From the NCBI GenBank assembly GCA_021770785.1, contig JAETQH010000009.1:1-64000 (forward strand): 64,000 nucleotides of DNA, in the 5' to 3' direction. How positions within the stretch are numbered: the first letter of the stretch is position 1; every line of letters begins with the position of its first letter. This stretch comes from Lachnospiraceae bacterium. GTDB taxonomy: Bacteria > Bacillota > Clostridia > Lachnospirales > Lachnospiraceae. The notes beneath the pieces are model-generated. The model ran no database searches and was not told where the DNA came from. It saw nothing but the letters and a program-made list of their open reading frames with translations. Shown here piece by piece: positions 15,010 to 64,000 of the stretch. The translations under genes and the position numbers were made by a program.

Positions 15010-16245
15010 ATGGAAAATAGGATTGTAGCGACTACATATGATGCGGACTTAGGTACATACAGAAAATCAAATTATCTGATCAAGGCGAAATATAAAATGT
15101 CACTGACCAGTGAGAAGCTGTTTGCCATTTCGTTATCCAGACTGAGGGAAAATTTTGAGAACGGTGGAAAGATGAGTGTGACCATCACGAAAAGTGAGCT
15201 CAGAAAGCTTCTGGCCAAACAGGATAAGGATGGGAACAGCGTTATAGATGACGGAAATATCTACAGGCAGTTGCTGGAAGCGGCAAATAGCCTTCATCTT
15301 TTGGCGATCTATATCCAGAATGACAGTAAAAAGCATTTTCATATAGAAAATATCTACCATACCATCAATTATAATGACAGTGACCTTTATTTTGAGTTTA
15401 ATCCGAATATACGCAACTATGTGATAGAGCTAAAGGACAATTTTACAGTGCTGAACCTGCCTACCATGCTGCGCTTTACGAGAAATTACAGCTACAGGCT
15501 TTATGAGATCTTAAAGAGTAAGTGTTATTATCCCAAATATGTGCCGATCGAACAGCGGACGGACAGGTTTCAGTTTCGTCTGGATCTGTTGGAGCTTAAG
15601 TTTACGATCGGGGTGCTTGATGCAAAGGATGAGAAAGTGATCAAGCTGTTTCATTCCGAAAATCCGACGATGGATGTCTACAAGAGAGCCTACGAAATCT
15701 TAAAAAAGGGTGACGAAGGGAAGATAAAGGACAAAAAGGTAAAATATGATACTTGGAAGGATTTTAAGACCAGGGTCCTGGATCCTTCTGTGGAAGAGAT
15801 CAACGAGAAGACGGATATTCATGTCAGCTACATTCTTGGCAAAGGGGCAAGGGGCAGAGTCGTGGATATTGAGTTTTATGTGGATCTGCTCAAGGATGTT
15901 CCCGTCCCTGAAGTGAAGAAGACCGCGGAAGAGATGGAAGATTTTCTGGATGATATGCGGATGATCATGCCGCTGGTACTCAAAACAAAAGATCTGAGAT
16001 CGATTGCTGAGGCAGCAAATTATAACATGGACAAGATCAAAAAGGCTGTCCAGTTATATCAGAAGGCGGGAAATGTCGAGAATGTGGTCGGATTTCTGAT
16101 CTCGGCGATCAGGGAGAATTATACAGATGCTGCCAGACAAAAAAAGTGGGAAGTATTTGAAAAACAGGACTATGGGGATATGGATGAATTTGAAAATCTG
16201 ATATTAGCCAATAATGTGCAGATGAAACTAAGCGATATGGAATGA
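15010..16245 (+). CDS. Rep_3-family replication initiator protein
   Basis: 411-residue initiator that would bind the upstream iterons and recruit DnaB. The N-terminal half has the tandem winged-helix pattern of Rep_3/RepB proteins: NYLIKAKYKMSLTSEKLFAISLSRL, YRQLLEAANSL, and LPTMLRFTRNYSYRLYEIL, with the recognition-like region RFQFRLDLLELKFTIGV. The C-terminal ~130 residues (after VKKTAEEMEDFL) are helical and charged; a partner-binding role is only a guess. GAAGG precedes the ATG. Its position between iterons and a convergent parAB operon defines a complete replication/partition module. Members of this family drive theta-replicating plasmids and some secondary chromosomes. Confidence 0.85.
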   Translation: MENRIVATTYDADLGTYRKSNYLIKAKYKMSLTSEKLFAISLSRLRENFENGGKMSVTITKSELRKLLAKQDKDGNSVIDDGNIYRQLLEAANSLHLLAIYIQNDSKKHFHIENIYHTINYNDSDLYFEFNPNIRNYVIELKDNFTVLNLPTMLRFTRNYSYRLYEILKSKCYYPKYVPIEQRTDRFQFRLDLLELKFTIGVLDAKDEKVIKLFHSENPTMDVYKRAYEILKKGDEGKIKDKKVKYDTWKDFKTRVLDPSVEEINEKTDIHVSYILGKGARGRVVDIEFYVDLLKDVPVPEVKKTAEEMEDFLDDMRMIMPLVLKTKDLRSIAEAANYNMDKIKKAVQLYQKAGNVENVVGFLISAIRENYTDAARQKKWEVFEKQDYGDMDEFENLILANNVQMKLSDME

Positions 16246-16275
16246 CGCGGAGTGGGGATGGATCCTCCGCGTCAT
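16242..16275. terminator. Hairpin between convergent rep and parB
   Basis: ATGACGCGGAG (16242-16252) pairs perfectly with CTCCGCGTCAT (16265-16275). It sits between the stops of rep and parB, where a bidirectional terminator is expected. It has no T-run of note. Confidence 0.5.
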
Positions 16276-16288
16276 GCTCCTACCTGAT

Positions 16289-17470
16289 TTATGTGTTTAA
16301 GAGTCCGTTAAAACGGTTTGCAAGGATCTCGATCTTAGAGCGCAGGGTCTCGTCCTGAATGATGATGTTTTTGCCGGTTTTCAGGATGTTAAATGAATTT
16401 TCGAACTGTTCTATCGTCTGTTCGAGTTTTGCGATCGTCTCGATCCTCTTCAATTCATCTGTGGTGATCTCAATGTTTCTTAGCTCCCGCTGTTTTTTGT
16501 CCTCCTCCATTTTATCGATCTTAGCCTGAAGGTTCGCGCGCTCTTTCTCAGCTTTTTCCTTTGCCGCCCTCAGTTCGCTGATCTCGTCTTTGATGATCGC
16601 ATCCGGCGCTGATATGTTTTTCTGTTCAAGCTTCTCGACCTGTTTTGTGAGTTCATCGATCAGGCTTTCTTTTTTTCTTAGTTCATCTTCTTTCTGGGTG
16701 AGCGATTTTTGAAGCTCCCTGGCTTCGGCTTCCTGTTTTTTTATGATCTTTAGGTTTTCTGCATTTACGCTGCCATCCCGCTGTATGATCCCGAGTATCT
16801 TTCGCTGGGATTCCTCTGACAACACGGCAAAATTGGAAGCGTCATCTATCTTGATCTGTTCCTTATTGAACAATTCCTGCAGTTGAGGTATGAGTTTCGC
16901 TGTATTTGTATATTTTGTCACCTGCCGCGTTGACATTTTGGTCTTTTCGGCGATCATCTTGTTGATATTACTGTACTGCGTGTCGCCCTGATCCCGTTTC
17001 AGTTCGTAGAGCTCCTTTAATCTCAGGATGCTGTCCCGCTTCTTCTCCTGGCTCTCGTCGCGGTCTTCCACATTTGCCGCAATGAGGGCTATTTCTTCAT
17101 CGGTCTCGCTGTCGAATACCATTATATGGCTTGGGATACCGCTTGGAAACTGGTTTTTGTACTCTTCGTCTGTGAAGAGGTCGATCGCCCGCCATCTTCT
17201 CTCCCCGGATATCAGTCTGTACCTGTTTGTACTTTCGTCTTTCGTCAGGCAGATATTGTGGAGCAATCCCGTGGATTGGATGGATTCTTTCAACTGTTCG
17301 ATATCTTCCTGGGCATAGCGTTTGTTGAGAGGGTTGATGTCGATCTTATCCCTGTGTATATACTGAAAATTGAAATTTTGTTTTGCCTTCATGTCTTTTA
17401 GGGTATTGCTCTCCGTTATCTTTATGCTGCTTGCCATTCCTACGCCAAAGTTCTTTTTCTTTGCTGCCAT
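16289..17470 (-). CDS. parB: ParB-family partition protein
   Basis: Centromere-binding protein partnering ParA in replicon segregation. The N-terminal ParB/Srx nuclease-like fold shows IDINPLNKRYAQEDIEQL, STGLLHNICL and the signature LISGERRWRAIDLF near residues 88-101. The central helix-turn-helix region contains AEKTKMSTRQVTKYTNTAKL. The C-terminal third is a long coiled coil (repeated EEL/KKE heptads, residues about 240-345) ending in a small helical domain, longer than in chromosomal ParB. The ATG overlaps the parA stop by one base (TAATG), so translation is coupled. It converges on rep. Confidence 0.88.
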   Translation of the reverse strand: MAAKKKNFGVGMASSIKITESNTLKDMKAKQNFNFQYIHRDKIDINPLNKRYAQEDIEQLKESIQSTGLLHNICLTKDESTNRYRLISGERRWRAIDLFTDEEYKNQFPSGIPSHIMVFDSETDEEIALIAANVEDRDESQEKKRDSILRLKELYELKRDQGDTQYSNINKMIAEKTKMSTRQVTKYTNTAKLIPQLQELFNKEQIKIDDASNFAVLSEESQRKILGIIQRDGSVNAENLKIIKKQEAEARELQKSLTQKEDELRKKESLIDELTKQVEKLEQKNISAPDAIIKDEISELRAAKEKAEKERANLQAKIDKMEEDKKQRELRNIEITTDELKRIETIAKLEQTIEQFENSFNILKTGKNIIIQDETLRSKIEILANRFNGLLNT

Positions 17471-18327
17471 TATTTGTCTCCGCCTTTCTTTGTCACCAAT
17501 AGGTTTTTCAGTTTTTTATAGTGCCTGTTATCGATCAGGTCCATATAATTGAGTAGTTCGATATAATCATTGAGTGCCGGACATTTTTTGTTGTATGTAT
17601 ACAGCGGCTGGAAGGCGGTGTTTGCTTCTGCCACAGCGATCAGATCCCTTATGGCGATCGGTATGAAAAGATCACCGAGCTGCTCCTGGTAGCTGCCGCT
17701 CATTCCGGTAAAAAGGTTGGAGGTCTTGCTCTTGATTTTAGTAAAAAATACACCCATGAACTCGGCGTTTCTTTTAAAGTTCGCATTTAGTTCGATGATC
17801 AGGTTTGCGAGCTTTAGAACGCCCTCGTATGAGAAGTTGTCGAGGCTTATGGGCGTCACTACCTTGTCGGAAGTTAATATTGCGCAATACGATAAATAAG
17901 TCTTGAAAGGTGAGGTATCTATAAATATGTAATCATAATCCTCCTCGATCAGTTTGATGTTTTTGGCAAAGCGCAATTCTATCCTGTCGTTTTTATCATT
18001 TGCAGTTTCTTTTGTGCCGTCATAGATTTTGTATATGACATCGCACATTTCTTCGGAGGAGGGGAGCATGTGAACATTTGTGTAGTTCGTCTGAACGATG
18101 AATTCCTGCATGCTTTTTTTGGAATACATTTTATGGCAAAAGAGATGTTCATAATTCAACTCCTCGATATCGTCTTTGATTCCAAACATCCTGGATGTGT
18201 TGGATTGGGGATCCAGGTCTATTATCAATACATGGTATCCCGCCAGACCTAGTAATTCTGCCATTGTGCATACGGATGTCGTTTTACCCACACCGCCCTT
18301 AAAATTCATAAAAGTTATTTTTTGCAT
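17470..18327 (-). CDS. parA: ParA-family partition ATPase
   Basis: 285-residue Walker-type ATPase that moves ParB-bound DNA. The deviant Walker A motif FKGGVGKTTS begins near residue 9, with LIIDLDPQSN near 34 and YDYIFIDTSPF near 130 as the A' and Walker B regions. There is no N-terminal DNA-binding extension, so it is a short (type Ib-like) ParA; in such systems the operator is usually bound by ParB rather than ParA. Two palindromes sharing one core lie upstream (18443-18544), suitable as operator or centromere. It forms an operon with parB. Confidence 0.88.
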   Translation of the reverse strand: MQKITFMNFKGGVGKTTSVCTMAELLGLAGYHVLIIDLDPQSNTSRMFGIKDDIEELNYEHLFCHKMYSKKSMQEFIVQTNYTNVHMLPSSEEMCDVIYKIYDGTKETANDKNDRIELRFAKNIKLIEEDYDYIFIDTSPFKTYLSYCAILTSDKVVTPISLDNFSYEGVLKLANLIIELNANFKRNAEFMGVFFTKIKSKTSNLFTGMSGSYQEQLGDLFIPIAIRDLIAVAEANTAFQPLYTYNKKCPALNDYIELLNYMDLIDNRHYKKLKNLLVTKKGGDK

Positions 18328-52309: not shown

Positions 52310-53085
52310 TTGACAGGGCAGAAGTGGACAGGAAGAGAAAAGGATGGATATGTACTGATCAATAATGGGGATGGGCAGACGTTGGGCATTGCGACAGCGC
52401 TTTCCCCGCAGATTGACTTGGTGACGGAACCTGGATGGATGCGTTTTGCAGATACATTCGGCGGGCATACCCGGATGACCATTGATATGACGAAGGCATA
52501 CTGTGACGGTTTCCAGCTCCTATAATACGTATCTCATACAGGATTTGCTGCGGGGAGAGCTTGGCTATGAAGGGGTTGTATGTAATGAATCCCAACTGAA
52601 ATCCATTACCATGTTGAAAAATAAAGACAGTGTCTTGCCGATTAAGCGGGGAATCAAAGTCTATGTCCCCACAAGGCAGATTCGGTCCCATGAGTATGCC
52701 GACGGGGGATCAGGAGGTGGTTCCGGTGGGTAAGAAGGCTGCAACAGATTATTAATGGAATACGGCCGCCAATGAAGCGGATCTTGACAATGTGATCAAT
52801 ATGAGGAAGGTCATGGGCGATAAACCGGTGATTGCGATTATGTCATTGAAAAATCCGATGGTGATGGCGGAGTTTGAGCCGCAGAGCCTGCTTCCGCTTC
52901 AGATGCCGAAAGACATGAAGACGGTAGAGTGCCAGAAGGAAGATGTGGCATTCGATATGGAATGTTATGTGGACAGTGAGGGACATACCTATGATTTTGG
53001 CTATGGGATGAACTATGCCGGAGTGATTTCAGATGAAAGAACTTGTAAGTATGTGAAACTGGAATGGAAGAAGCCTTATTACTAA
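52310..53085 (+). pseudogene. Decayed GH3 glycosidase remnant
   Basis: Three pieces of one GH3 protein in three frames. 52310-52525 holds the barrel region (GIATALSPQIDLVTEPGWMR, FADTFGG, KAYCDGFQ). 52503-52733 holds LLRGELGYEGVVCN joined directly to SITMLKNKDSVLPIKRGIKV, so about 150-200 residues are deleted between them. 52792-53085 holds the C-terminal sandwich (NMRKVMGDKPVIAIM), then a second internal deletion and the tail DFGYGMNYAGVI. A full enzyme would exceed 650 residues. It is different from the intact GH3 at 47574, so the locus once had two. Confidence 0.85.
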
Positions 53086-54424: not shown

Positions 54425-54483
54425 AAAAAATACAAAAATTAAAAAATGGTACTCAGTACCATTTTTTAATTTTTGTATTTTTT
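54425..54483. repeat. 59-bp near-perfect AT-rich palindrome
   Basis: Bases 54425-54453 are the exact reverse complement of 54455-54483 around a single C. The outer part is A/T only; the centre is GGTAC. It ends in a T-run and so may terminate the esterase operon and, on the other strand, the FRG gene; its length exceeds what termination needs. Confidence 0.85.
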
Positions 54484-54653: not shown

Positions 54654-55454
54654 TCATTTAACGTAATAGTGCCTCTTAATCCAGGAAGAAAGACCATCTA
54701 GCCCTGGATATATAGTGCGTTCATTAATATTAAGTTGATCCAGCATATCTCGGATTCTCCATTTTAATGACTTATCAATAACATATTTGATTGTATTTTC
54801 TGTTTTTAAATTTAAAAATGACTCTATATTTGATGTTTCTCTTGGAATTACAGAAAAATAAGAGTATTGGTTTATTATTCGTTGATCAATTGACGGTGGT
54901 TCCAACAAAATCATTGAATTGTTTTTCATATCATCGTCATAATCGTCTAAACTCTGAACCACTTTATTTAGCATTTCTACTGTGAAAAGATATGCCTGTT
55001 CTTCCCTTAATTTGTTTTGGTATTTATGAGGTAATAATCCATTTATTTCTTTAATATCAATAGCCCAAACTACACAGTTATTTTCTTGCATTTCAAAAAA
55101 TGGTTCGCCACTTGTTGCAAAGTGTAATCCGATTAAAGGTGAATATGTCCAATCAAGCAATCTTGTCGGCAATCCATGATGTTGCCCTATAACGAGCTGA
55201 CTCCATACCGAACTTATGAGGTCAGGTGCTTCAATGGAAGCATATTTAGTAAAATTTCGCAAAATAGCTTTTTCCAAATCATATCCTTTATATTTACAAT
55301 TTCTGCGAAGACTTGTTTCTAAGTGAAAATTAACATTAGGCAATCCTCTATATAAATATGTTGATCGATATCGGTTAATTTTGTCATCATACTTTTGCTC
55401 AGAAATAATATTCCATACTTCACATATTTCATGAATTTCTTTTATATTAATCAT
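54654..55454 (-). CDS. FRG-domain protein
   Basis: 266 residues from ATG 55454 (GAAGGTGG upstream; 55508 is an alternative). The FRG domain is recognised by YLYRGLPNVNFHLETSLRR, then WSQLVIGQHHGLPTRLLDWT with YSPLIGLHFAT, residues about 35-130. FRG proteins are of unknown biochemistry but frequent in phages and bacterial defence islands. The C-terminal half ends with a helical segment. Sequence here is strongly AT-rich compared with the genes before it, suggesting transfer. It is 271 bp downstream of the vWA gene in the same orientation, so it may belong to that operon or be adjacent cargo. Confidence 0.8.
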   Translation of the reverse strand: MINIKEIHEICEVWNIISEQKYDDKINRYRSTYLYRGLPNVNFHLETSLRRNCKYKGYDLEKAILRNFTKYASIEAPDLISSVWSQLVIGQHHGLPTRLLDWTYSPLIGLHFATSGEPFFEMQENNCVVWAIDIKEINGLLPHKYQNKLREEQAYLFTVEMLNKVVQSLDDYDDDMKNNSMILLEPPSIDQRIINQYSYFSVIPRETSNIESFLNLKTENTIKYVIDKSLKWRIRDMLDQLNINERTIYPGLDGLSSWIKRHYYVK

Positions 55455-55725
55455 TTGTCCACCTTCCATTCTAAAAATATCGAGAAAAAGAACTGGGCTT
55501 TTGTCCATTTAATAGAACCCTGGATACCCAAAATTGATTTTCTATTCCATATAATAAAATTTTTAGACTAATTTACATACAATATATTCATAGTAAAATA
55601 CTGACTACTATGTCATCTGTTTTGTTCTCTGTTCTGCCCCACGGACTTACAAAATGCTCAACACTTTTTACCAAGATTATGAAATGCTCAATACACCAGG
55701 AATTAATATTAATTTTAAAACAATA
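55455..55725. other. AT-rich gap between vWA and FRG genes
   Basis: No gene or convincing terminator seen. The looser spacing than elsewhere in the array leaves open an independent FRG promoter; none was certain on the minus strand. Confidence 0.4.
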
Positions 55726-56532
55726 TTAGATCACTCTATCTATGGTATCCACATCAAGATATTGGCCATAGGCACTATTAATAATTTTATCGTCCTTAGA
55801 AACCATAGGTGTCATGTTCATACCATCTTCTGAAGGAAAGCGATCAGACTTTTTTTTTGCACGCTTTTTAATTTCATCAAAAACATCAATAAATTGTTCG
55901 CTTGTATTAATCTGATATACCTCCTGAGTAGGTGTCAGTTTCCTGAGTACCTGCATATCTGCGTCTCGGCTTATTCCAATTGGAAAAATATGTAGTTCGC
56001 CTTTACTTACACGATCCCGCACCCAATTAAACTGTCGCGTAGGATCATCTCCACAAGAAAAAGCTTCGCCATCCGTCATAAAAACTAACATGGGAACATA
56101 ATTATCATTATCATTATTCTGTAGCTCCTGTATTTTGTCATCGATGACACGTAATGCTAAATTCAATGCTTCTGACATAAATGTCTGCCCACGTGCATGA
56201 AACTGAGTAGCCCTTTCCGGATCAATGCTTTGTATATCTACAAAGGGCTGAATGCGATGTGCATGACGGTCATAAACAATCACACTGATGAGGGCTTCTG
56301 ATGCCAGGGCAGAATCATCCTCCTGCATAGCGCGGAGCATATTCCTCATCACTTTACTTAGCAAATTAATACGAGATCCAGAAATACCAACAGAAGTATC
56401 CATCGAACCACTGACATCTATACAAAAGCAAATCGGAATACGCGGGCTAGTTCGCATTTGTTCATTATACATTTGGTCATATTCTTCTTTTAGATAATAT
56501 CCTGTATCATTAGAACGATTATATTCAGACAT
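55726..56532 (-). CDS. von Willebrand factor A domain protein, TerY-like
   Basis: 268 residues. A vWA fold with complete metal-ion-dependent adhesion site: DVSGS (Asp39, Ser41, Ser43) near the N-terminus, the Thr in ARGQTFMSEALNLAL, and FMTDGEAFSCGDD. IFPIGISRDADMQVL and QFIDVFDEIKKRAKKK complete the domain, matching cytoplasmic TerY-like vWA proteins. No signal peptide or membrane segment. In TerY-P systems this protein works with a kinase and a PP2C phosphatase; here a kinase-like protein is encoded 30 bp upstream, but no phosphatase is seen. GGAAGTG precedes the ATG. Confidence 0.88.
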   Translation of the reverse strand: MSEYNRSNDTGYYLKEEYDQMYNEQMRTSPRIPICFCIDVSGSMDTSVGISGSRINLLSKVMRNMLRAMQEDDSALASEALISVIVYDRHAHRIQPFVDIQSIDPERATQFHARGQTFMSEALNLALRVIDDKIQELQNNDNDNYVPMLVFMTDGEAFSCGDDPTRQFNWVRDRVSKGELHIFPIGISRDADMQVLRKLTPTQEVYQINTSEQFIDVFDEIKKRAKKKSDRFPSEDGMNMTPMVSKDDKIINSAYGQYLDVDTIDRVI

Positions 56533-56562
56533 AAAAACACTTCCTTTCTGATCATTTTTCTA

Positions 56563-58614
56563 TCAAAACTGTTTTCTTTTTTTCTGACATTCCGGGCAAT
56601 AATTAGGCAGCCTCCAATTATCTATACCGAATCGCTTATCGTAGTCTTCTTTCTGACCAAAAGTAAAATCAAACGAACAGTCACAGTTCCGACAACGCAA
56701 CTTTTTATATGCCTGTAATCGAATATGTTTACACTCGCTACAATACCGCTGCTTATGCCAATCAGGATTCTGGTCGGCAGCAAGCCGATGAAAAATCGCC
56801 ATTTTTTTAGAATAAATAAATTTTCTGTCTGTTGATGCATGATACGAACTTATACATTCAAAAAATTTATCAGAAGGTGTGTTTAGGCATGAATTACAGA
56901 TTCGGTAGGGTGTGTCAAAATACTTACGGTAAAAATAAAACTTAGGGTACTCGACGCCACAATAGGGACACTTAAAAAACTGTGTCTTGGCATCACGCTT
57001 AAATGTTTTTGGAAAAAGTTCAAGTGATTCCAAATCATATGGATGTTCCAAGTCTTTTCTAAATGTTTGCACTTCATGAAGCCAAAAACGAGGGGATTTA
57101 CGTTTTTCAGGTGCATTAAACTCCTTACCAGACATAAAGGTGTTATAAAAATCTCCTTTCAGTTCTCCTAGATGGCTCCACACAAAACGCCATCGCCCAC
57201 TAGGCCGATCTACATCTCGGTTTCCAGGTTGTCCGCTCCATGAGAAAGGAAATCTCATATTAGCAATACTTTGAGCCATATCCGTATTTTTTTCTTTTGC
57301 GTATGGTGTTTTTCCTGGCATCATAAGCATAAACACCAGCTCCGCAATCTCATAATTTTCTGTCTGTTGTGTATATAAACGTTTGCGGATTCCGCTCATT
57401 TGCAACTCCGGAGGCTGAAAAGTAATATTCTGCGATACACAAGAATACCCCTCAATCTGATAACAATCCATATCTACAAAATACACCTGGTTCTTATCTT
57501 TTACAAAGATAGATTGTGGATTAATGCAGCCAAAAAATATATGCCTATCCTGCAAAAATATAATGTGTTCCAATATACAAATTGTTAGTTCGCACAAATC
57601 TTTTTTATTCCAGCTAGGAAAATTCAATTTAAGCTGCTCCTCACCAAGAACACTTTGCATCAAAGGTAGCCCCTCTGCTTGCGGTATCATTGCTCCTACA
57701 AAGCAGCCATTAACATCATACAGCTTTGAAACAGGCCATCCTATTCCTTTGCGCCGAATTGGTTTTTGAAGCATCAGTTCTGTTTTATTTTCAAAATAAG
57801 TAGTTCTTAACACATTAGGTGCATAGATTTTAGCCAGTATGCCTGTTTGGTTTGTCCTGTAAGTAATGGATGCGGCATTACTCATAAATTCCTGAAGTAA
57901 TGTTATTTCATTACCCTGATCATCATACACCGTTTTACCCTTATCAATAATTCCATGGATTAATCTGCTTGTTGGATAACATTGTGTAATGACAGTCATT
58001 ACCTTAAATACTTCATCTGCAGGTACAATTGCCTGCTTTGCTGAAATTTCATTGTTTGCAAATCCAGACAGTCTTCCCTCATTGTCAAGCGTAAAAAAGC
58101 GGAGTTCTTTACGCAGTTTATATGCAATATTTTTAACTTTTTTTGCTTTATCCAAAGTCTTTGATAAAAAAAGGAATGGCCCTTGAACATCTTGTTGTTT
58201 AAATAAGTCTTCATAATTTTTTAGGTTACAATAGATATTTGCATTTTCCTTCTCAATAAGTATTGTATGAAATATCTTTTGTATATCATCAGGCATCGAA
58301 CTATATTCAAATCCCGGTATTAATACAGATCTCTTGTGTACACTTTTGGTATTAAGCGTGTGCCACGCTTGTATAAAAGATATAAATCCTTTTGTGCGCA
58401 TTAATTCTCCTTCTACTATTATGTTAATTTCCAAGGAGTTGAAAAGTACTGATGGATTTGCCCCATATTGAGGCCACTTTACATTTGATTTATTTGTCTG
58501 GTTTGTTTTTTTACGTTCTTTTGCTACATTACCCTTATTTCTTTGATATGTACTATAGGAACCTTCAACAGATTTAGGTGTCGTTTTATTAAAATCCTGT
58601 GTAAAATTCGTCAT
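56563..58614 (-). CDS. Protein-kinase-like protein with C-terminal zinc ribbons, probable pseudokinase
   Basis: 683 residues. The N-terminal ~55 are polar; residues 60-200 form an unassigned alpha/beta region. A protein-kinase-like fold follows: LAKIYAPNVL (nucleotide-binding Lys near 260), a hinge near AMIPQAEGLPLM, then HIFFGCINPQSIFV near 363 where kinases of this type have GD(I/L)NP, and VYFVDMDCYQIEGY near 379 in place of the DFG region. The catalytic-loop Asp is thus Cys. The C-terminal ~140 residues carry CxxC pairs (FKCPYC, ICNSC, YCSEC, LRCRNC, NYCPEC), at least two zinc ribbons. The ATG (GGAGG upstream) overlaps the TIR gene by 26 bp. Probably a signalling hub between TIR and vWA proteins (inference). 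Confidence 0.75.
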   Translation of the reverse strand: MTNFTQDFNKTTPKSVEGSYSTYQRNKGNVAKERKKTNQTNKSNVKWPQYGANPSVLFNSLEINIIVEGELMRTKGFISFIQAWHTLNTKSVHKRSVLIPGFEYSSMPDDIQKIFHTILIEKENANIYCNLKNYEDLFKQQDVQGPFLFLSKTLDKAKKVKNIAYKLRKELRFFTLDNEGRLSGFANNEISAKQAIVPADEVFKVMTVITQCYPTSRLIHGIIDKGKTVYDDQGNEITLLQEFMSNAASITYRTNQTGILAKIYAPNVLRTTYFENKTELMLQKPIRRKGIGWPVSKLYDVNGCFVGAMIPQAEGLPLMQSVLGEEQLKLNFPSWNKKDLCELTICILEHIIFLQDRHIFFGCINPQSIFVKDKNQVYFVDMDCYQIEGYSCVSQNITFQPPELQMSGIRKRLYTQQTENYEIAELVFMLMMPGKTPYAKEKNTDMAQSIANMRFPFSWSGQPGNRDVDRPSGRWRFVWSHLGELKGDFYNTFMSGKEFNAPEKRKSPRFWLHEVQTFRKDLEHPYDLESLELFPKTFKRDAKTQFFKCPYCGVEYPKFYFYRKYFDTPYRICNSCLNTPSDKFFECISSYHASTDRKFIYSKKMAIFHRLAADQNPDWHKQRYCSECKHIRLQAYKKLRCRNCDCSFDFTFGQKEDYDKRFGIDNWRLPNYCPECQKKRKQF

Positions 58615-59431
58615 TTACTTGCCTCCATTTCTTATTCCATCGTCTTGCAGTATCCCTAATCTGCACATCTGCAGACATAATCAGATCAAAATACAATTTT
58701 TCAATTTCAAATTGATCATTTCGAATACGTGCCAAATCTAATAAATATATCCCACCTCCCCCATCGTGATATTCATCCCAAAGTTTTCGCGCCAGTGTTT
58801 CGGCCTCATACGAAATATTTCTCCCATCCCGTCTACGCACCTTTTTAAAATCTTCACGAAGTTGATCATACAAACAAACCGTATTTTCAGGCATAAGTCC
58901 TTCTGAATAGAGCCTTTGTTCTATTCTTAGTGTTATCTCCGTTATCTTGGGATTATTCATATCTGAAACCATATCTAAAAATTCTGCAATATGAGATGAA
59001 ATTTCCTGAAATTTCTTTAACTCTTTACCAAGGTCTCCCAGATTTTGTGCATATATATTATTTAATTTTTCTTGCAATTCTCTAAATTTCTCTTGCCAGA
59101 ACTCTACATATGTTGCCTTATTTATAGGATTGTATATTTCTGAATTTATAACTGCTGGAAAAATTCTATCCTTATATTCTCTATCTCTCATCATTTCCAA
59201 CACTTCATACATACAATTTGCAGATTTTAGGTAAGAATCGGAAATAATAAGAATAATGTAATCCATGCCGTGAATCGATTGCATATATTTTTTTATACTA
59301 TCCCATGCCCTGATTTTAAATTTGTCCCTATATAAATCAACGTTGGGGTTGCCACGGAAGTAATCATATATATTATCTGCTATCTTATCATCATCCCAAC
59401 AATAAGATAAAAATATCCTTATTTTCTTCAA
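58589..59431 (-). CDS. TIR-domain protein, probable NAD+-consuming effector
   Basis: 280 residues. The N-terminal TIR domain (1-150) reads IRIFLSYCWDDDKIADNIYDY (box 1), VDLYRDKFKIRAWDS, and YIILIISDSYLKSANCMYEVLEM, with Glu76 at the catalytic position of TIR NADases. The C-terminal part is helical and unassigned (EFLDMVSDMN, then EAETLARKLWDEYH). The start is TTG at 59431 with GGGGAGG eight bases upstream; no ATG fits. It lies 15 bp after the sugar-isomerase-like gene and overlaps the kinase-like gene. TIR NADases kill or arrest infected cells in Thoeris and related systems; that role here is inference. Confidence 0.87.
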   Translation of the reverse strand: MKKIRIFLSYCWDDDKIADNIYDYFRGNPNVDLYRDKFKIRAWDSIKKYMQSIHGMDYIILIISDSYLKSANCMYEVLEMMRDREYKDRIFPAVINSEIYNPINKATYVEFWQEKFRELQEKLNNIYAQNLGDLGKELKKFQEISSHIAEFLDMVSDMNNPKITEITLRIEQRLYSEGLMPENTVCLYDQLREDFKKVRRRDGRNISYEAETLARKLWDEYHDGGGGIYLLDLARIRNDQFEIEKLYFDLIMSADVQIRDTARRWNKKWRQVNDEFYTGF

Positions 59432-59446
59432 AAAGCGGCCTCCCCA

Positions 59447-60424
59447 TTAAAAACTGCTATTTTCTGACCCTGGAATTAAATCACTTTCAATTTCCCCTGC
59501 AAAATAACTGCCAATCTGTGCAATAAACCGCAATACATCTTGCTTCATTATTTCAGGAAAGGATGACAGTACTGGGGCTGTCTCAAAACTCAATACCCCA
59601 TTAAATTGAATTGCTCGTAGCCCCCTAATAAAACCAGCCCAATCCGTAGATGATTCATTTTCACGGTTTTGGGTAAAAGTAAATGGTATCTGGTGTAAAT
59701 CGTTCACTCCATCATTATCATGAATATGAAGTACTTTTAACCGGTTTCCAAGTATTGTGATAAAATCCTCAAAGTCAAGCCCGATCAGATTTGCATGCCC
59801 TGTATCAAAACAGAATCCCAACACTTCAGCGCCGTACCTTTCATTCATACGATCAATGCGTTCCACCGCCTTCCTTGCATCGCAGCATGGTCCTTCTATG
59901 ATATGGCTTCCTATACTGGTATAAATATTTTCTACGCATATCGTAATGCTCAGTTTCTTTGCAAGCGGCGCGAGCGACTCTAAAAAACTTTCCGTTTGTT
60001 CCCACTCTGCAGCTTCAGAACCAAGCTCTCTGGTCAGCTTAAATCCATGCACCACAATGTATGGACAGCCAAAGAAAGCGCAGATCTCCATGCTTTTGGG
60101 TGCTACGGTGTGCATCAGATAATCATTGATTCCCATTGCCGCGCCGGGTATATAAATCGGATACGGCATATGCATTTGGTTAATATATATACCTGCAGTT
60201 TCTACGGCTTCTTTATGCGGCGTAAAAAAATGTTTAAGCTTTTCAACAGACTGACTGAAAAAATCATTTATTTCCATAGAATATAGTGATGTATTTGTAA
60301 GATATGAATTCAAACTGAAATCACAGCAGGACAACCCCGCATGTTTTATCATTTCAAATCCTTCTATGGGATATTTGTCAAAAACGATATTTTTACTCTG
60401 CACGCCGACAGATAATGTGTTCAT
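59447..60424 (-). CDS. Sugar phosphate isomerase/epimerase-like TIM-barrel protein (AP-endonuclease 2 superfamily)
   Basis: 325 residues from ATG 60424 (AGGAGGAAAGAGG upstream). Xylose-isomerase-like TIM barrel with a likely intact metal site: ITICVENIY (Glu), LGFCFDTGHANL (Asp, His), LKVLHIHDNDG (His, Asp) and GVLSFETAP (Glu). Early strands show NQMHMPYPIY and YIVVHGF. Members isomerise or epimerise sugars or act as endonuclease IV. No signal peptide. The protein encoded at 63093-64000 is a paralogue lacking these ligands. Placement inside a TIR/vWA/kinase operon hints at production or modification of a small molecule (inference). Confidence 0.82.
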   Translation of the reverse strand: MNTLSVGVQSKNIVFDKYPIEGFEMIKHAGLSCCDFSLNSYLTNTSLYSMEINDFFSQSVEKLKHFFTPHKEAVETAGIYINQMHMPYPIYIPGAAMGINDYLMHTVAPKSMEICAFFGCPYIVVHGFKLTRELGSEAAEWEQTESFLESLAPLAKKLSITICVENIYTSIGSHIIEGPCCDARKAVERIDRMNERYGAEVLGFCFDTGHANLIGLDFEDFITILGNRLKVLHIHDNDGVNDLHQIPFTFTQNRENESSTDWAGFIRGLRAIQFNGVLSFETAPVLSSFPEIMKQDVLRFIAQIGSYFAGEIESDLIPGSENSSF

Positions 60425-60502
60425 TTGCCTCTTTCCTCCTCGTTTTAGCCATCCAACACAATTATTTTTCATTCAATAGCATTACTGGATGTGATCCCTT
60501 TG

Positions 60503-62062
60503 CTACTGCTTTTTGGCGAACAATGCCTTCGCTTCCTCCAGATTATCGCAGTCAGCTTCAATCGCCTGCTTTAGTAATTTTAGTCCAGCTTCTGTATCAG
60601 TATCTGTTCCGATTCCATATATGTAACATTTTGCAAGCGGGTATCCAGCTGTATGATAGCACTTTTTTTCCACAGCATCGTAAAGATATTGAAACGCAGC
60701 CCGTTCATTTCTTTCAGTTCCTTTTCCTTCAAGATAACATATTCCAAGTTTTGCCTTAGCTTCGACAAAACCAAGCCTGACAGCTTTATCATACAATTTG
60801 ACGGAAACAGCCCCATATTCAGGATTTCCTTTTATAGAAGAATAACATTCCGCAAGCAGGTAAATTCCTTCTGGCTCATTATATGGTATCGTCTTTTTTA
60901 AGTATGCAGCTGCTTTCTTCTTGTCCACCGCTACTCCGATTCCCTCTAAATAACAGCGCCCTAATTCGGTGTATGCCTTTGCTTCTCCTTCTGCAGCTGA
61001 CTGCATCAGCTTATCCAATCCTTCTTTGATTCTCCCATGATTTACACAATAAACTCCCATTTCATACAGCTCTAATGAACTGTAACTCTTTTCCGTCCTG
61101 TCTTCATTATCTCTGTTATCTTGGGCTTGTGTTTTTCCATCCATTCCTGTGTTTTGCATTTCCTGCATCGTCATTTCCACTGCTGCTATCCGTTCATCGG
61201 TAGGTGGATGTGTTGAATATAATATATACTCCATGGAGAGTTTATTGATCTTCTGCTCGTGGGGAAATTTATTGAATGTATCAATCAGCCCATTTCCAAA
61301 ACCGATCAAGGTACTCAGCCTGTCCGCAGCAAATTCACTTTTCCTGCCGAAAAATCTGATCCCAATTGTTTCTATCAATGCAATCACTGCCAAAAAGAAG
61401 TCAAATACTTTTCCAATGAGTGAAAACAGATATTTTGTTAGCCTGAAAATACCGAATCCATTTTCGACATTTCCATCCGAAAACATAGTTCCGAAAACTA
61501 AGCCCATAAATGTTCCAAGACACCAGCAAAACGCCATGTAAACCCATCTTATCACACTGACTGCAAGTGTTCCCTGTAATGACATCATCAATGCGGCAGT
61601 GTCTCCATTGATATGATGTGCCAGTTCATGCGCCAACACGCCCCCAATTTCATCATCATACATATAATTTGCCAATAAATCCCTATGCACTACTATTGTA
61701 CGGCTGCCTGCGGCATATGCATTGATTCCTTCTGCATCTGATACAAAGAATTCAATATTGCCCGGAACACGGATTCCTTTGCTGGCTGCGTTCTCGCAGA
61801 CCTTCTTCCATATTCGCTGTATTCTCTCTGACTCTATTCCATCCGGTTTTCTAGCATTTATAATCCATGTGTAATACCAGTCGACAAACGGTGTGAGCGC
61901 AAGAAGATACAAGCCTGCCAGCACTGCGAAGGCAAGTACCGCCCCGATGGCTGCCGTCTCTACAAATGCAGTACATAAGAATAGGAGCCACGAATAATTG
62001 ATTGCCAGTGCAAACCAAAAACCCCAGTTACAGTTTTTGAAACGGATACTTTTCTGATTCAT
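60503..62062 (-). CDS. Membrane M48-family metalloprotease with C-terminal Sel1 repeats
   Basis: 519 residues from ATG 62062 (AGGGGGGG upstream). Two N-terminal TM helices (about 14-65), then an HtpX/Ste24-like M48 domain: IEFFVSDAEGINAYAAGSRTIVV, zinc motif LAHELAHHINGD near 145, two further TM stretches (170-195, 215-240), and the third ligand in KSEFAADRLS. From about 345, four Sel1-type repeats (YTELGRCYLEGIGVAVDKKKAAAYL; AKLGICYLEGKGTERNERAA; and so on) form a helical scaffold for protein contacts. The fusion of protease and Sel1 array is unusual. It could release or process a partner upon a signal (inference). Confidence 0.85.
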   Translation of the reverse strand: MNQKSIRFKNCNWGFWFALAINYSWLLFLCTAFVETAAIGAVLAFAVLAGLYLLALTPFVDWYYTWIINARKPDGIESERIQRIWKKVCENAASKGIRVPGNIEFFVSDAEGINAYAAGSRTIVVHRDLLANYMYDDEIGGVLAHELAHHINGDTAALMMSLQGTLAVSVIRWVYMAFCWCLGTFMGLVFGTMFSDGNVENGFGIFRLTKYLFSLIGKVFDFFLAVIALIETIGIRFFGRKSEFAADRLSTLIGFGNGLIDTFNKFPHEQKINKLSMEYILYSTHPPTDERIAAVEMTMQEMQNTGMDGKTQAQDNRDNEDRTEKSYSSLELYEMGVYCVNHGRIKEGLDKLMQSAAEGEAKAYTELGRCYLEGIGVAVDKKKAAAYLKKTIPYNEPEGIYLLAECYSSIKGNPEYGAVSVKLYDKAVRLGFVEAKAKLGICYLEGKGTERNERAAFQYLYDAVEKKCYHTAGYPLAKCYIYGIGTDTDTEAGLKLLKQAIEADCDNLEEAKALFAKKQ

Positions 62063-62072
62063 AAAGCCCCCC

Positions 62073-62411
62073 CTATTTTTCCATTTTGGCAAAACCTTTC
62101 ATAAGCTCTGTATTTTCATGCATCATGCTGGTGATTAACGGCTGGTACACCGCCGTGAGCTCCGGCTGCTGGATTAATTTATCTGCCATATCTTTTATTA
62201 TATTCCGCTGCATTTCACTGATTCGTTTCACTTCATCAAATTTGACGCTGAAAGTATATGTATTTTTTAGCAACTGGTTATTGAATCTCTGTGTCTCTTC
62301 AATCAGCTTTCTGACTTTTACCTCCGAATACTGTTTTGTTTTATACATATCGGACACATGCTTTAATAAGTCAATCGGGCTGATGCTTACTTCTATTCCC
62401 AAATTTTCCAT
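62073..62411 (-). CDS. Small helical protein of unknown function
   Basis: 112 residues, entirely helical in appearance with heptad-like stretches (VKVRKLIEETQRFNNQLLKN, VKRISEMQRNIIKDMADKL). No membrane segment and no recognised family. It sits 10 bp before the M48 protease gene and 3 bp after the next unknown, so it is translationally coupled in the operon. It could be an adaptor or protease substrate; nothing in the sequence decides this. Confidence 0.7.
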   Translation of the reverse strand: MENLGIEVSISPIDLLKHVSDMYKTKQYSEVKVRKLIEETQRFNNQLLKNTYTFSVKFDEVKRISEMQRNIIKDMADKLIQQPELTAVYQPLITSMMHENTELMKGFAKMEK

Positions 62412-62414
62412 TTT

Positions 62415-63089
62415 TCATTTTCCTTTCCTAAAATAATTTTCCAGTACTCTGTTCATTTCATATACCCGGACAAAATAATCCCTGTTGATTTCTTCGGAAA
62501 TCAGAAGTTTGTTCTCTAAGTGCTCCTCTATCAGATCCTTTATTGTTCCAAGGCCTTCTTTCCCGCTCCTTTGAATCTCCCTGTGTGCATTCATAAGGCA
62601 TGCTATATTGTCTGTGTCCAGTTCAATTCTCTCCGTTTCCATATATATCTTATTGAGGATATTTTTTGCCCCTGCCTGGGAAATGATTGTCCTAATCCGC
62701 TGAATTTTTGCTTCCTCATATATTTCATGAATATCAACATCTCGAATGCTTTTGATTGTAAAATATCTTTTACATAATTCCTGATACAGAACGCTTTTCC
62801 AATATTCCATATCCCAATATACATAATTGTCAGGTAAAGGTATTGAAGTTTTTTTCAGCAGCGAATATGCCATCCGTCTTACATTAACATTGCATTCTGA
62901 CATTTTGAGGGCATTTTCCAAGATCTTATTTGCTTCATTTAAGATATCATCAATGATTTTTATATCATTTATGTACATCATTCCAGACACATACTCGGCA
63001 CTGTACGTCTGGTGCGGTTCTTTTATGGCTCGAAAAAGTTCTTTAATATTGTTTTCCTTTGCAGCATTAAATACATCTCTCGAAGTCAT
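62415..63089 (-). CDS. Helical protein of unknown function
   Basis: 224 residues, predicted helical and charged, starting MTSRDVFNAAKENNIKELF, which resembles one degenerate ankyrin- or HEAT-like helical pair, then YSAEYVSGMMYINDIKIIDDIL. No membrane segments, Cys clusters or catalytic motifs seen. Its start lies 3 bp after the stop of the upstream gene and its stop 3 bp before the next start. Function unknown; tight coupling argues that it is part of the same system. Confidence 0.7.
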   Translation of the reverse strand: MTSRDVFNAAKENNIKELFRAIKEPHQTYSAEYVSGMMYINDIKIIDDILNEANKILENALKMSECNVNVRRMAYSLLKKTSIPLPDNYVYWDMEYWKSVLYQELCKRYFTIKSIRDVDIHEIYEEAKIQRIRTIISQAGAKNILNKIYMETERIELDTDNIACLMNAHREIQRSGKEGLGTIKDLIEEHLENKLLISEEINRDYFVRVYEMNRVLENYFRKGK

Positions 63090-63092
63090 GGG

Positions 63093-64000
63093 CTATTCCT
63101 CCCTGTCCAGTCTGTCAAAATAAAACGACGGCATATATTCGTCATTAAAATATCCAATGTTCTCAATTCCCATTTCCCGAAGCTGTGCCTCTATTTCCCG
63201 GTAATAAATGTTGCAGATAACTACGCAGTAGTCTCTAGGCAGTTCTTTTAATACCTCTGGGTTCTTTACCTCCAGCCCTTCAAACATCGTCCCCCAGAGT
63301 TTCGGATTGTTGTCGCAGGTAAATAGCGGTGGGTATTTTTCACCGTAACATTTCATGTAGTTGCGGCACATATTGCCCGCACCGAAAAGGACCAACTTTT
63401 TGTAATTTTTCAGATTGTTTTCCATTTCAATCTGCCACTTAAAGTATTCCGCTGTCTGTCTTGCAAGTGGATAGAGTACAGGTCTTAAAATAGGTGAAAA
63501 TGAACTGCATGTACTCGAAAAATCAACCGCGAGCTCTCCGTCAAAGCTGATATCACGAAGACCTCTTATTGCGCCGAGCCAGTCTGTTTCCGAATCAGCA
63601 TATGAAAATGGAAGCATTGATACATCCTTACGACCATCATTCTCCCTTAAAATCACAGTCCTTAAGTGCTTCCCAAGTATATTGATGAAAGTCTGGACAT
63701 CATTTCCGCAGATGTTGCATATTCCAATGTCCACGCAAAAACCGAAAGCTTCATAACCAATTTGGCTGTTCAGCATGTCTATCCATTCTACAGCCTCAAC
63801 TGCTTCAGCACAGAAACCACGTATCAGATGCCCGCCTACGTTCCTTGCCTGGTTTTTCAACAAAAGCATCACACCATATTGGTGAGCCTTTACCGCTGCA
63901 CTTACAAGATAATCATGTGCTGCCTGCTCCTCTTCCCCGCTGTTTTCTACGAGCTGTATGGGCAGTTCTATAAGCAGAAATTCGCACCCTGTCCTCCTAC
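63093..64000 (-). CDS. Degenerate TIM-barrel sugar-isomerase-like protein with Rossmann-like C-terminal domain (5' end outside window)
   Basis: The frame is open to the window edge, so the start is missing. The barrel part aligns with the 59447-60424 protein (GYEAFGFCVDIGICN / LGFCFDTGHAN; LRTVILRENDG / LKVLHIHDNDG; GELAVDFSS / GVLSFETAP). It has lost the His, His and Glu of the metal site, so it is probably not catalytic as an isomerase. The C-terminal ~110 residues (KLVLFGAGNMCRNYMKCYG, then LFTCDNNPKLWGTMFEGL) form a Rossmann-like dinucleotide- or nucleotide-sugar-binding unit of a kind seen beside glycan enzymes. It is the first visible gene of the array and may act as a sensor or partner of the intact paralogue. 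Confidence 0.75.
   Translation of the reverse strand, partial: RRTGCEFLLIELPIQLVENSGEEEQAAHDYLVSAAVKAHQYGVMLLLKNQARNVGGHLIRGFCAEAVEAVEWIDMLNSQIGYEAFGFCVDIGICNICGNDVQTFINILGKHLRTVILRENDGRKDVSMLPFSYADSETDWLGAIRGLRDISFDGELAVDFSSTCSSFSPILRPVLYPLARQTAEYFKWQIEMENNLKNYKKLVLFGAGNMCRNYMKCYGEKYPPLFTCDNNPKLWGTMFEGLEVKNPEVLKELPRDYCVVICNIYYREIEAQLREMGIENIGYFNDEYMPSFYFDRLDREE

Follow-up and report, generated by a model that had tools for sequence, protein, structure and literature searches.

TIR, pseudokinase and vWA genes beside a glycan cluster in a Lachnospiraceae genome: a candidate module related to the TerY-P triad

Genes at the locus

We analysed a 64,000-base stretch of a draft Lachnospiraceae genome (G000:C52:1-64000, hereafter the window), in which genes for a TIR-domain protein, a kinase-like protein with zinc ribbons and a vWA protein follow one another on the minus strand. 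The draft genome comprises 4.99 Mb, with 100% completeness and 6.93% contamination, and contig C52 is 105,632 bases long in total. A preliminary description, made from the letters of this DNA, had joined these three genes and six neighbors into one new defense or stress-signaling operon. All nine reading frames were found where it had placed them in the list of open reading frames (ORFs), on one strand (Table 1), and the short or overlapping junctions that it reported from 63.9 to 55.7 kb were confirmed. In the order TIM2, 224-amino-acid protein, 112-amino-acid protein, M48-Sel1, TIM1 and TIR, the genes are separated by 3, 3, 10, 78 and 15 bp. The TIR and kinase-like genes overlap by 26 bp, the vWA gene follows after 30 bp, and the FRG gene after a further 217 bp. 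By eye, a purine-rich stretch resembling a ribosome-binding site precedes seven of the starts, namely those of TIM1, M48 (62062), the 112- and 224-amino-acid proteins, TIR, kinase and vWA.

Table 1. Features of the locus, with positions in the window.
Feature	Position	Strand	Evidence or remark
TIR-domain protein, 280 amino acids, Glu76 in NADase position	58589..59431	-	TTG start preceded by GGGGAGG
Predicted pseudokinase, 683 amino acids	56563..58614	-	Alignments, motif table, list of CxxC motifs
vWA protein, 268 amino acids, TerY-P-type	55726..56532	-	VWA E=3.2e-8
FRG-domain protein, 284 amino acids as listed	54654..55508	-	FRG E=4.5e-22, PDC-S15 E=6.4e-48
TIM1, xylose-isomerase-like TIM barrel	59447..60424	-	AP_endonuc_2 E=1.5e-20
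Membrane M48 peptidase with Sel1 repeats, 529-amino-acid ORF	60503..62062	-	Peptidase_M48 8.5e-20, Sel1 1.2e-15
112-amino-acid protein	62073..62411	-	No Pfam family above its cut-off
224-amino-acid protein	62415..63089	-	No family above cut-off
TIM2, TIM barrel with C-terminal sugar-enzyme-like Rossmann domain	63093..64000, on to contig position 64322	-	AP_endonuc_2 E=6.8e-5, under cut-off
29-bp perfect inverted repeat with terminal A/T runs	54425..54483	.	Terminator character

The TIR, kinase-like and vWA proteins

The kinase-like protein consists of a degenerate PIN-like N-terminus (residues ~60-200), a kinase fold (~235-455) and C-terminal zinc ribbons with five CxxC motifs. Its own Pfam match, to PF14531, was weak (E=0.018, under cut-off), and a profile of its family matched protein kinases in the PDB (best E=7.5e-8). 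The nearest relatives, ~30% identical, are PIN-kinase-zinc-ribbon proteins whose loci also encode vWA and PP2C proteins. This was so in loci L009, L011, L012 and L013, with an XRE-PIN protein in L009 and L012 as well, and the relative in L009 matched Pkinase, PIN_4 and zf_Tbcl. Alignment with these relatives showed that the catalytic loop, GDINPxNI in the family, reads FGCINPQSI in the window, with the catalytic Asp replaced by Cys363 and the Asn by Ser368. In addition, the G-loop GGEG reads NAAS, and most of the acidic PIN residues are gone, as judged by eye. Lys262, Asp381 and the zinc-ribbon cysteines are kept. The protein is thus predicted to be catalytically dead, and its description as a zinc-ribbon pseudokinase stands. 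Matches to Cas12f, a calicivirus coat protein and a nucleoside kinase were weak, and these identities were rejected.

The vWA protein carries a complete metal-ion-dependent adhesion site (MIDAS), with DVSGS at 39-43, T117 and D154, as the preliminary description had noted. It was 29-31% identical to four vWA proteins from TerY-P-type triads. The TerY-P triad combines a TerY-like vWA protein and a PP2C phosphatase with a Ser/Thr kinase that carries a fused zinc ribbon, and it has been interpreted as a phosphorylation switch that senses metal (PMC11090510); statements on published sources, here and below, apply to the parts of them that were covered. The kinase and vWA proteins of the window are both homologous to members of such triads, which bears out their assignment to the TerY-P kind.

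The TIR protein matched TIR_2 (Pfam, E=1.4e-14), a family with one other match in the whole genome. Residues 6-84, including YE76, aligned weakly with the TIR structure 7uxr (E=0.0064). Glu76 falls on the Glu of the YE pair in 7uxr, which we take to be the catalytic Glu. The reported TIR domain with its Glu was therefore recovered.

A second copy of the three genes in a distant genome

We searched for the kinase in several genome samples. A first single-sequence scan of genome contigs found nothing. Single-sequence searches found the kinase in three of 200 family genomes, its own included and one of the others distant (23%), and in none of the 61 other genomes among 62 genus members. In the class sample, 44 of 391 genomes matched at E<=0.001, mostly through the C-terminal zinc-finger part alone. 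The phylum and order samples gave six of 398 genomes (E<=1e-10) and five of 373 (E<=1e-15), own genome counted in both, and added only kinases that keep the catalytic-loop Asp. A catalytic-loop pattern found nothing in L017, which belongs to G579, or in L031, a 22% match. The kinase was absent from the phage and viral-contig collections searched, and plasmids yielded 35 distant matches, all below 60% identity and none covering 80% of the query. The TIR was absent from the plasmids searched. We dropped mobile carriage of the three genes on these grounds.

The best match outside the own genome in the class sample was in G579 (39% identical over kinase residues 202-681). The locus, L046, encountered again as L081, lies on JAGASE010000021.1 of the Clostridia metagenome-assembled genome RGIG8725 from water-deer colon. 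Among the 70 genomes of the G579 family, the kinase occurred in G579 only, and the matches of the other 49 were confined to the short zinc-finger part at the C-terminus. The gene order at the second locus is a 1457-amino-acid membrane protein, an RyR-domain protein, TIR, kinase and vWA, with gaps of 78, 97, 5 and 20 bp. The RyR gene (7687-8007; PF02026, E=5e-35) stands directly upstream of the TIR gene. The second TIR matched TIR_2 (E=1.6e-10), Sel1-like repeats (E=6.6e-4, under cut-off) and the PADLOC ThsB profile (E=4e-4). The second vWA protein matched that of the window at E=2e-24. The second kinase has the loop IGCPDPASI, with the same Asp-to-Cys and Asn-to-Ser changes as in the window; its G-loop is missing as well, and Asn takes the place of the DFG-Asp. 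Both kinase frames are intact, at 683 amino acids in the window and 671 in the second genome. The sole PP2C-like match in L046 (23%, E=0.058) falls within a gene assigned by Pfam to the AAA ATPases, and we attribute it to chance.

The preliminary description had proposed conservation of gene order as a check on its operon. The nine-gene order was not found in the relatives searched, whereas the three-gene core of TIR, pseudokinase and vWA recurs in this distant genome.

A kinase tree joined the window and L081 at 100/100. The window kinase shared 12 derived states with L081 that no other row has, and at most three such states with any other row; for the vWA proteins the corresponding numbers were 4 vs 2. 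The kinase-vWA pairs of the window and L081 thus probably have a single origin, as far as these alignments tell. The two TIRs were not detectably similar by BLASTP, and so they reflect either fast divergence or two recruitments. On the assumption that every kinase of the family comparison below has the same likelihood of a TIR neighbor, the TIR beside the L081 kinase would be expected in about 1 in 60 cases by chance, which is an estimate and not a test.

We considered whether the predicted dead kinase could perform other chemistry, perhaps as a transferase acting on the TIR or vWA protein. The window copy keeps Lys262 and Asp381, Cys363 is shared with the second copy, and the reference list of PMC13174449 names pseudokinases with other chemistries. 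However, the second copy has Asn at the position of Asp381 and the G-loop is gone in both, and we regard such chemistry as very unlikely. The system treated in that source, Swarozyc, was rejected as a known match for the locus: all three uses of 'pseudokinase' in the covered text fall in its reference list.

Catalytic Asp, PP2C and the upstream gene in the TerY-P family

We compared the two loci with the wider family. Kinase rows came from the contig scan with alignment A5 (58 loci) and from the plasmid-collection loci L011-L013. Of the scan loci, 56 were kept, as no kinase ORF was obtained from L122 and the one in L137 was shorter than 300 amino acids. The result was 65 kinase rows of at least 300 amino acids from 59 loci. 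Some loci are duplicates: L097 is L009, L098 is L047, L081 is L046, and L101 is a copy of L100.

The catalytic site was Asp in 59 of the 65 rows, Cys in one (L081) and Ser or Asn in three (L117-L119), and two rows did not cover it. PP2C was close by in 55 of the 59 Asp rows, within five genes in 53 and identified by tblastn in L114 and by annotation in L013. In row L107_1 the PP2C gene lies ~6.6 kb further along, next to another kinase, and the remaining three (L108, L123 and L133) stop 16-845 bp from a contig end. In the window genome, tblastn with six PP2C queries (E<=0.1) found no PP2C on contig C52 (window, L002, L003 and L165); the three PP2C_2 matches of the genome sit on other contigs, C192 and C86.

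A same-strand gene lies within 2500 bp upstream of the kinase in 51 of the 59 loci, encoding XRE-PIN in 15 and another protein in 36; eight loci have none. We scanned 34 of the 36 other proteins, setting aside the L081 TIR, which is the case itself, and the duplicate L101. None of the 34 was a TIR (all 21 families at E<=0.001). This is a cleaner control than our scan of neighbors, which covered 135 of 192 proteins and the first 25 families per set. A phmmer scan for TIRs was insensitive, in that the window and second-copy TIRs failed to find each other.

Two side observations concern the family itself. In three Bacillaceae TerY-P loci, a second kinase-vWA pair with Ser or Asn in place of the Asp (L117:14445-16229, L118:14188-15966 and L119:14190-15983) lies downstream of an intact kinase-vWA-PP2C set; these second paralogues probably represent a separate line of dead kinases, as their residues suggest. 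Campylobacter gastrosuis PS10 has three TerY-P-type places (L100, L101 and L132), with the kinase split over two ORFs in each. The L100 and L101 sequences agree at all 21,350 bases and lie ~211 kb apart on one contig, which points either to a large segment duplicated recently or to a misassembly.

Origin of the three-gene core

Given these comparisons, we favor a TerY-P triad as the source of a module made up of TIR, pseudokinase and vWA, with the TIR in the place of the phosphatase, and we give this reading an even chance of being right. Several points weigh against it. Only two genomes are known with the TIR-pseudokinase-vWA combination, and since the window was picked for its TIR, they amount to one independent observation, L081. 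The kinase tree carries a long-branch-attraction warning, with both branches long, and the vWA tree, in which branches are very long, does not place the window and L081 side by side. BLASTP gave no significant similarity between the two TIRs (E=0.70). The PADLOC matches of the window proteins were weak, both for the vWA protein (TerY, E=0.0017) and for the TIR (SAVED_TIR, 1.2e-4; bSEFIR, 0.0013). The core is joined to the glycan cluster described below by a TIM1-TIR junction of 15 bp. Finally, the only PADLOC profile met by the 33 proteins from 1-54 kb (E<=1e-10) was mad3, in five proteins that are probably ABC-transporter ATPases. On this result we discarded the window as a defense island.

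Some of the same observations would fit decay and coincidence. A horizontally acquired TerY-P triad may have lost its phosphatase, its kinase may be eroding, and an unrelated TIR may have come to adjoin it by chance. The window kinase and vWA protein sit on long branches, which points in this direction, as does the small number of cases, two, with TIRs that are not demonstrably orthologous. The low GC of the TIR (0.326) and kinase (0.358) genes compared with the nearest five glycan genes (0.416-0.445) is also consistent with it. However, the kinase frames are intact in both genomes, which also show identical Asp-to-Cys and Asn-to-Ser changes in an identical gene order. The vWA MIDAS and the zinc-ribbon cysteines are kept, and the TIR and kinase genes overlap. 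We therefore consider decay and coincidence rather unlikely. The TIR, kinase, vWA and FRG genes together span a GC of 0.31-0.385. Because the next three glycan genes (0.359-0.376) are close in GC, the low values of the core argue weakly for horizontal acquisition. No tRNA that could have served as an insertion site was present in the window.

TIM barrels as members of a glycan cluster

The same-strand gene run does not begin within the window. It passes the window edge and takes in glycan genes as far as ~105 kb, close to where the contig stops, so that the supposed nine-gene operon is a cut from a longer run extending ~40 kb upstream. The run encodes glycosyltransferases, methyltransferases, an epimerase, an IspD-like cytidylyltransferase and a methyltransferase/cytidylyltransferase fusion (Pfam for four proteins, the rest by eye). 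TIM2 starts outside the window, at 64322, with a 4-nt overlap with the stop of the fusion gene. By eye, many otherwise unrelated glycan enzymes encoded in C52:64319-105632 share a similar C-terminal Rossmann domain of GAG type, which TIM2 also has.

We examined TIM1 and TIM2 in related genomes. TIM2 matches (E<=1e-15) were found in seven of 145 relatives, own genome included. The TIM2 relative directly adjoins a TIM1 relative in G255, G215 and G244, and one gene (DUF1796) lies between them in G250. TIM2 was 36-54% identical in these siblings, with an in-frame stop in G215. TIM1 matched in five siblings, with 63-66% identity in G255, G215, G244 and G250 and 68% in G237, where it sits at a contig end and TIM2 cannot be judged. 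By eye, the fusion gene stands upstream of the pair in G250, G255 and G244, with 1, 3 and 0 genes between; the 10.3-kb contig of G215 shows the TIM pair and no further glycan gene. No relatives of the TIR, kinase or vWA proteins were present in the sibling stretches fetched (pieces of 7-19 kb, to which the search for TIR and vWA was confined).

These results show that the TIM barrels are glycan-cluster genes, with TIM2 at the 3' end of the cluster, and are no part of the core. The preliminary description was right that two TIM barrels are present, but the pair belongs to the glycan cluster. Its proposal of a sugar-derived small molecule has lost its basis, as TIM2-TIM1 are glycan genes in the siblings, and the TIM barrels as makers of a signaling sugar found no support. 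The cluster likely makes a flagellin or surface glycan, because flagellin genes lie near the TIM barrels in G244 and G237.

The reading of all nine genes as one new defense or stress operon, with sugar-derived signaling by the paired TIM barrels, draws on their common strand and short gaps. It is contradicted for the TIM barrels, which are paired in siblings without the rest in the stretches fetched. In addition, the run continues far upstream, and the FRG gene is set apart by 217 bp. We consider this the least probable of the explanations weighed here. Of the proposed unit, the TIR-pseudokinase-vWA part holds and the TIM barrels fall away.

Alternatively, the whole run could be a glycan or envelope quality-control operon, in which M48-Sel1, TIR, pseudokinase and vWA monitor the surface glycan or flagellum. 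The tight junctions to the glycan cluster agree with this, as do the membrane M48-Sel1 protein in the window, the membrane HExxH protein near the second copy, and the flagellin genes close to the TIM barrels in two siblings. In contrast, the siblings keep TIM2-TIM1, in three cases beside glycan genes, without the kinase (0/61), the 224-amino-acid protein or M48. Moreover, no glycan-synthesis gene was recognized near the second TIR-kinase-vWA copy. An envelope function of the whole run is accordingly decidedly unlikely in our judgment, and the derived TerY-P module remains the reading that we prefer for the core.

M48-Sel1, the small proteins and the FRG gene

The M48-Sel1, 112-amino-acid and 224-amino-acid genes sit between TIM2 and TIM1 in this genome only, among those compared. 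The membrane HExxH protease with Sel1 repeats was identified correctly, with HELAH at 155 and four transmembrane-like segments. Its membership in the unit was not upheld: no M48-Sel1 homologue occurred in the 144 other relatives (E<=1e-20). The same is true of the 224-amino-acid protein (0/144, E<=0.001). For the 112-amino-acid protein, PglZ, Bacillus HBL and other candidates were rejected, as all Pfam scores were under the curated cut-offs.

In the second copy, the 1457-amino-acid membrane protein (L046:3235-7608) lies two genes upstream of the TIR gene. It has a zinc-ribbon-like stretch and HELTH near its C-terminus, and matched no family above cut-off. This HExxH protein may link a protease to the core. 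It has no M48 match, and M48 as a core member was rejected on this ground and for want of a relative.

The FRG gene is better read from an internal ATG at 55454, since the listed start has no clear stretch resembling a ribosome-binding site, as judged by eye. Its domain was assigned correctly, but the gene is 217 bp away and falls in a stand-alone family, PDC-S15 (PADLOC). The FRG gene is probably a separate unit, a stand-alone candidate-defense gene. Beyond it, the palindrome at 54425-54483 is likely a bidirectional terminator that closes the gene run, to judge from its form. A promoter scan did no better than chance (37 found vs 38.5 expected).

Two further observations in the window were made by eye. 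ORFs at 15010-18327 resemble, from their translations, a replication initiator, ParB and ParA, and are perhaps an integrated element. Short ORFs on one strand at 52310-53085 resemble pieces of a broken glycoside hydrolase gene.

Comparison with known systems

TerY-P acts against T7-like phages according to a commentary (PMC7699616) and against phages in P. aeruginosa PAO1 (PMC10889362). The window resembles TerY-P in the homology of its MIDAS-bearing vWA protein and its kinase to the family, in the kept zinc ribbons, and in the order of kinase then vWA, as in most relatives read. It differs in the predicted loss of the kinase residues, in the absence of PP2C from the contig, and in the TIR directly upstream.

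The core resembles Thoeris and other TIR-based anti-phage systems in having a TIR with the presumed catalytic Glu and, at the second copy, an RyR gene beside it; its TIR is paired with a pseudokinase and a vWA protein. No ThsA or other Thoeris partner was matched by PADLOC among the nine proteins (E<=1) or the 33 proteins from 1-54 kb (E<=1e-10), and the window TIR had no ThsB match. Pfam found no RyR domain among the nine window proteins.

GAP1-N2 neighborhoods include a tubulin theme in Firmicutes and actinobacteria and a kinase-zinc-ribbon, PP2C and vWA theme in actinobacteria (PMC7159879). The second copy recalls the former: it lies downstream of genes for Tubulin_2 and for a secreted protein whose DNSGS motif looks vWA-like by eye. 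However, neither protein was recognized near the window copy, and in the published kinase theme the kinase is active and accompanied by PP2C (PMC7159879). The PDC-S15 match is strong, and it belongs to the neighboring FRG gene, a gene of its own.

A possible mechanism and its meaning

The core probably serves in NAD-based defense, with a predicted TIR activity. In the usual form of the system, the PIN-kinase-zinc-ribbon protein writes phosphates, PP2C erases them, and the vWA protein acts as a partner. With the catalytic residues and the phosphatase partner lost, a scaffold and sensor would remain. Nucleic acid or metal, for instance, could be the trigger bound by its zinc ribbons and pseudo-PIN domain, and the vWA protein may bind a partner through Mg2+. 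The TIR would be the output, idle while held by the scaffold-vWA complex. An infection or stress signal would alter this complex and let the TIR assemble. The assembled TIR would then destroy NAD+ or make an ADP-ribose signal, leading to a growth stop or cell death.

The RyR gene of the second lineage may bear on the output. Phage RyR-domain proteins bind or cleave the 2' and 3' cyclic ADP-ribose (cADPR) signals made by TIRs, and the substrate-binding residues are reported to be conserved across PF02026 (PMC13232231). Because phage RyR proteins act on these signals, the RyR gene beside the second TIR supports a nucleotide signal, which the RyR protein could bind or destroy. Taken as a whole, the scheme is that of a TerY-P phospho-switch turned NAD-based: the kinase is dead, the phosphatase dropped, and the TIR gated by a pseudokinase-vWA scaffold and RyR-tuned in one lineage. 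We put forward this full scheme tentatively and rate its chances as somewhat short of even.

A combination of TerY-P with a TIR was not described in the literature searched, among the matches listed; subscription papers lay mostly outside the reach of that search. A host-side RyR partner of TIR signaling would be new to us, as the covered part of the preprint PMC13232231 shows phage-side degraders or sponges. In the literature covered, the input and output of the kinase in TerY-P triads are not settled. If the proposed reading is true, it would suggest that the vWA-kinase pair is a sensor with exchangeable outputs, and these three genes would provide a compact test case.

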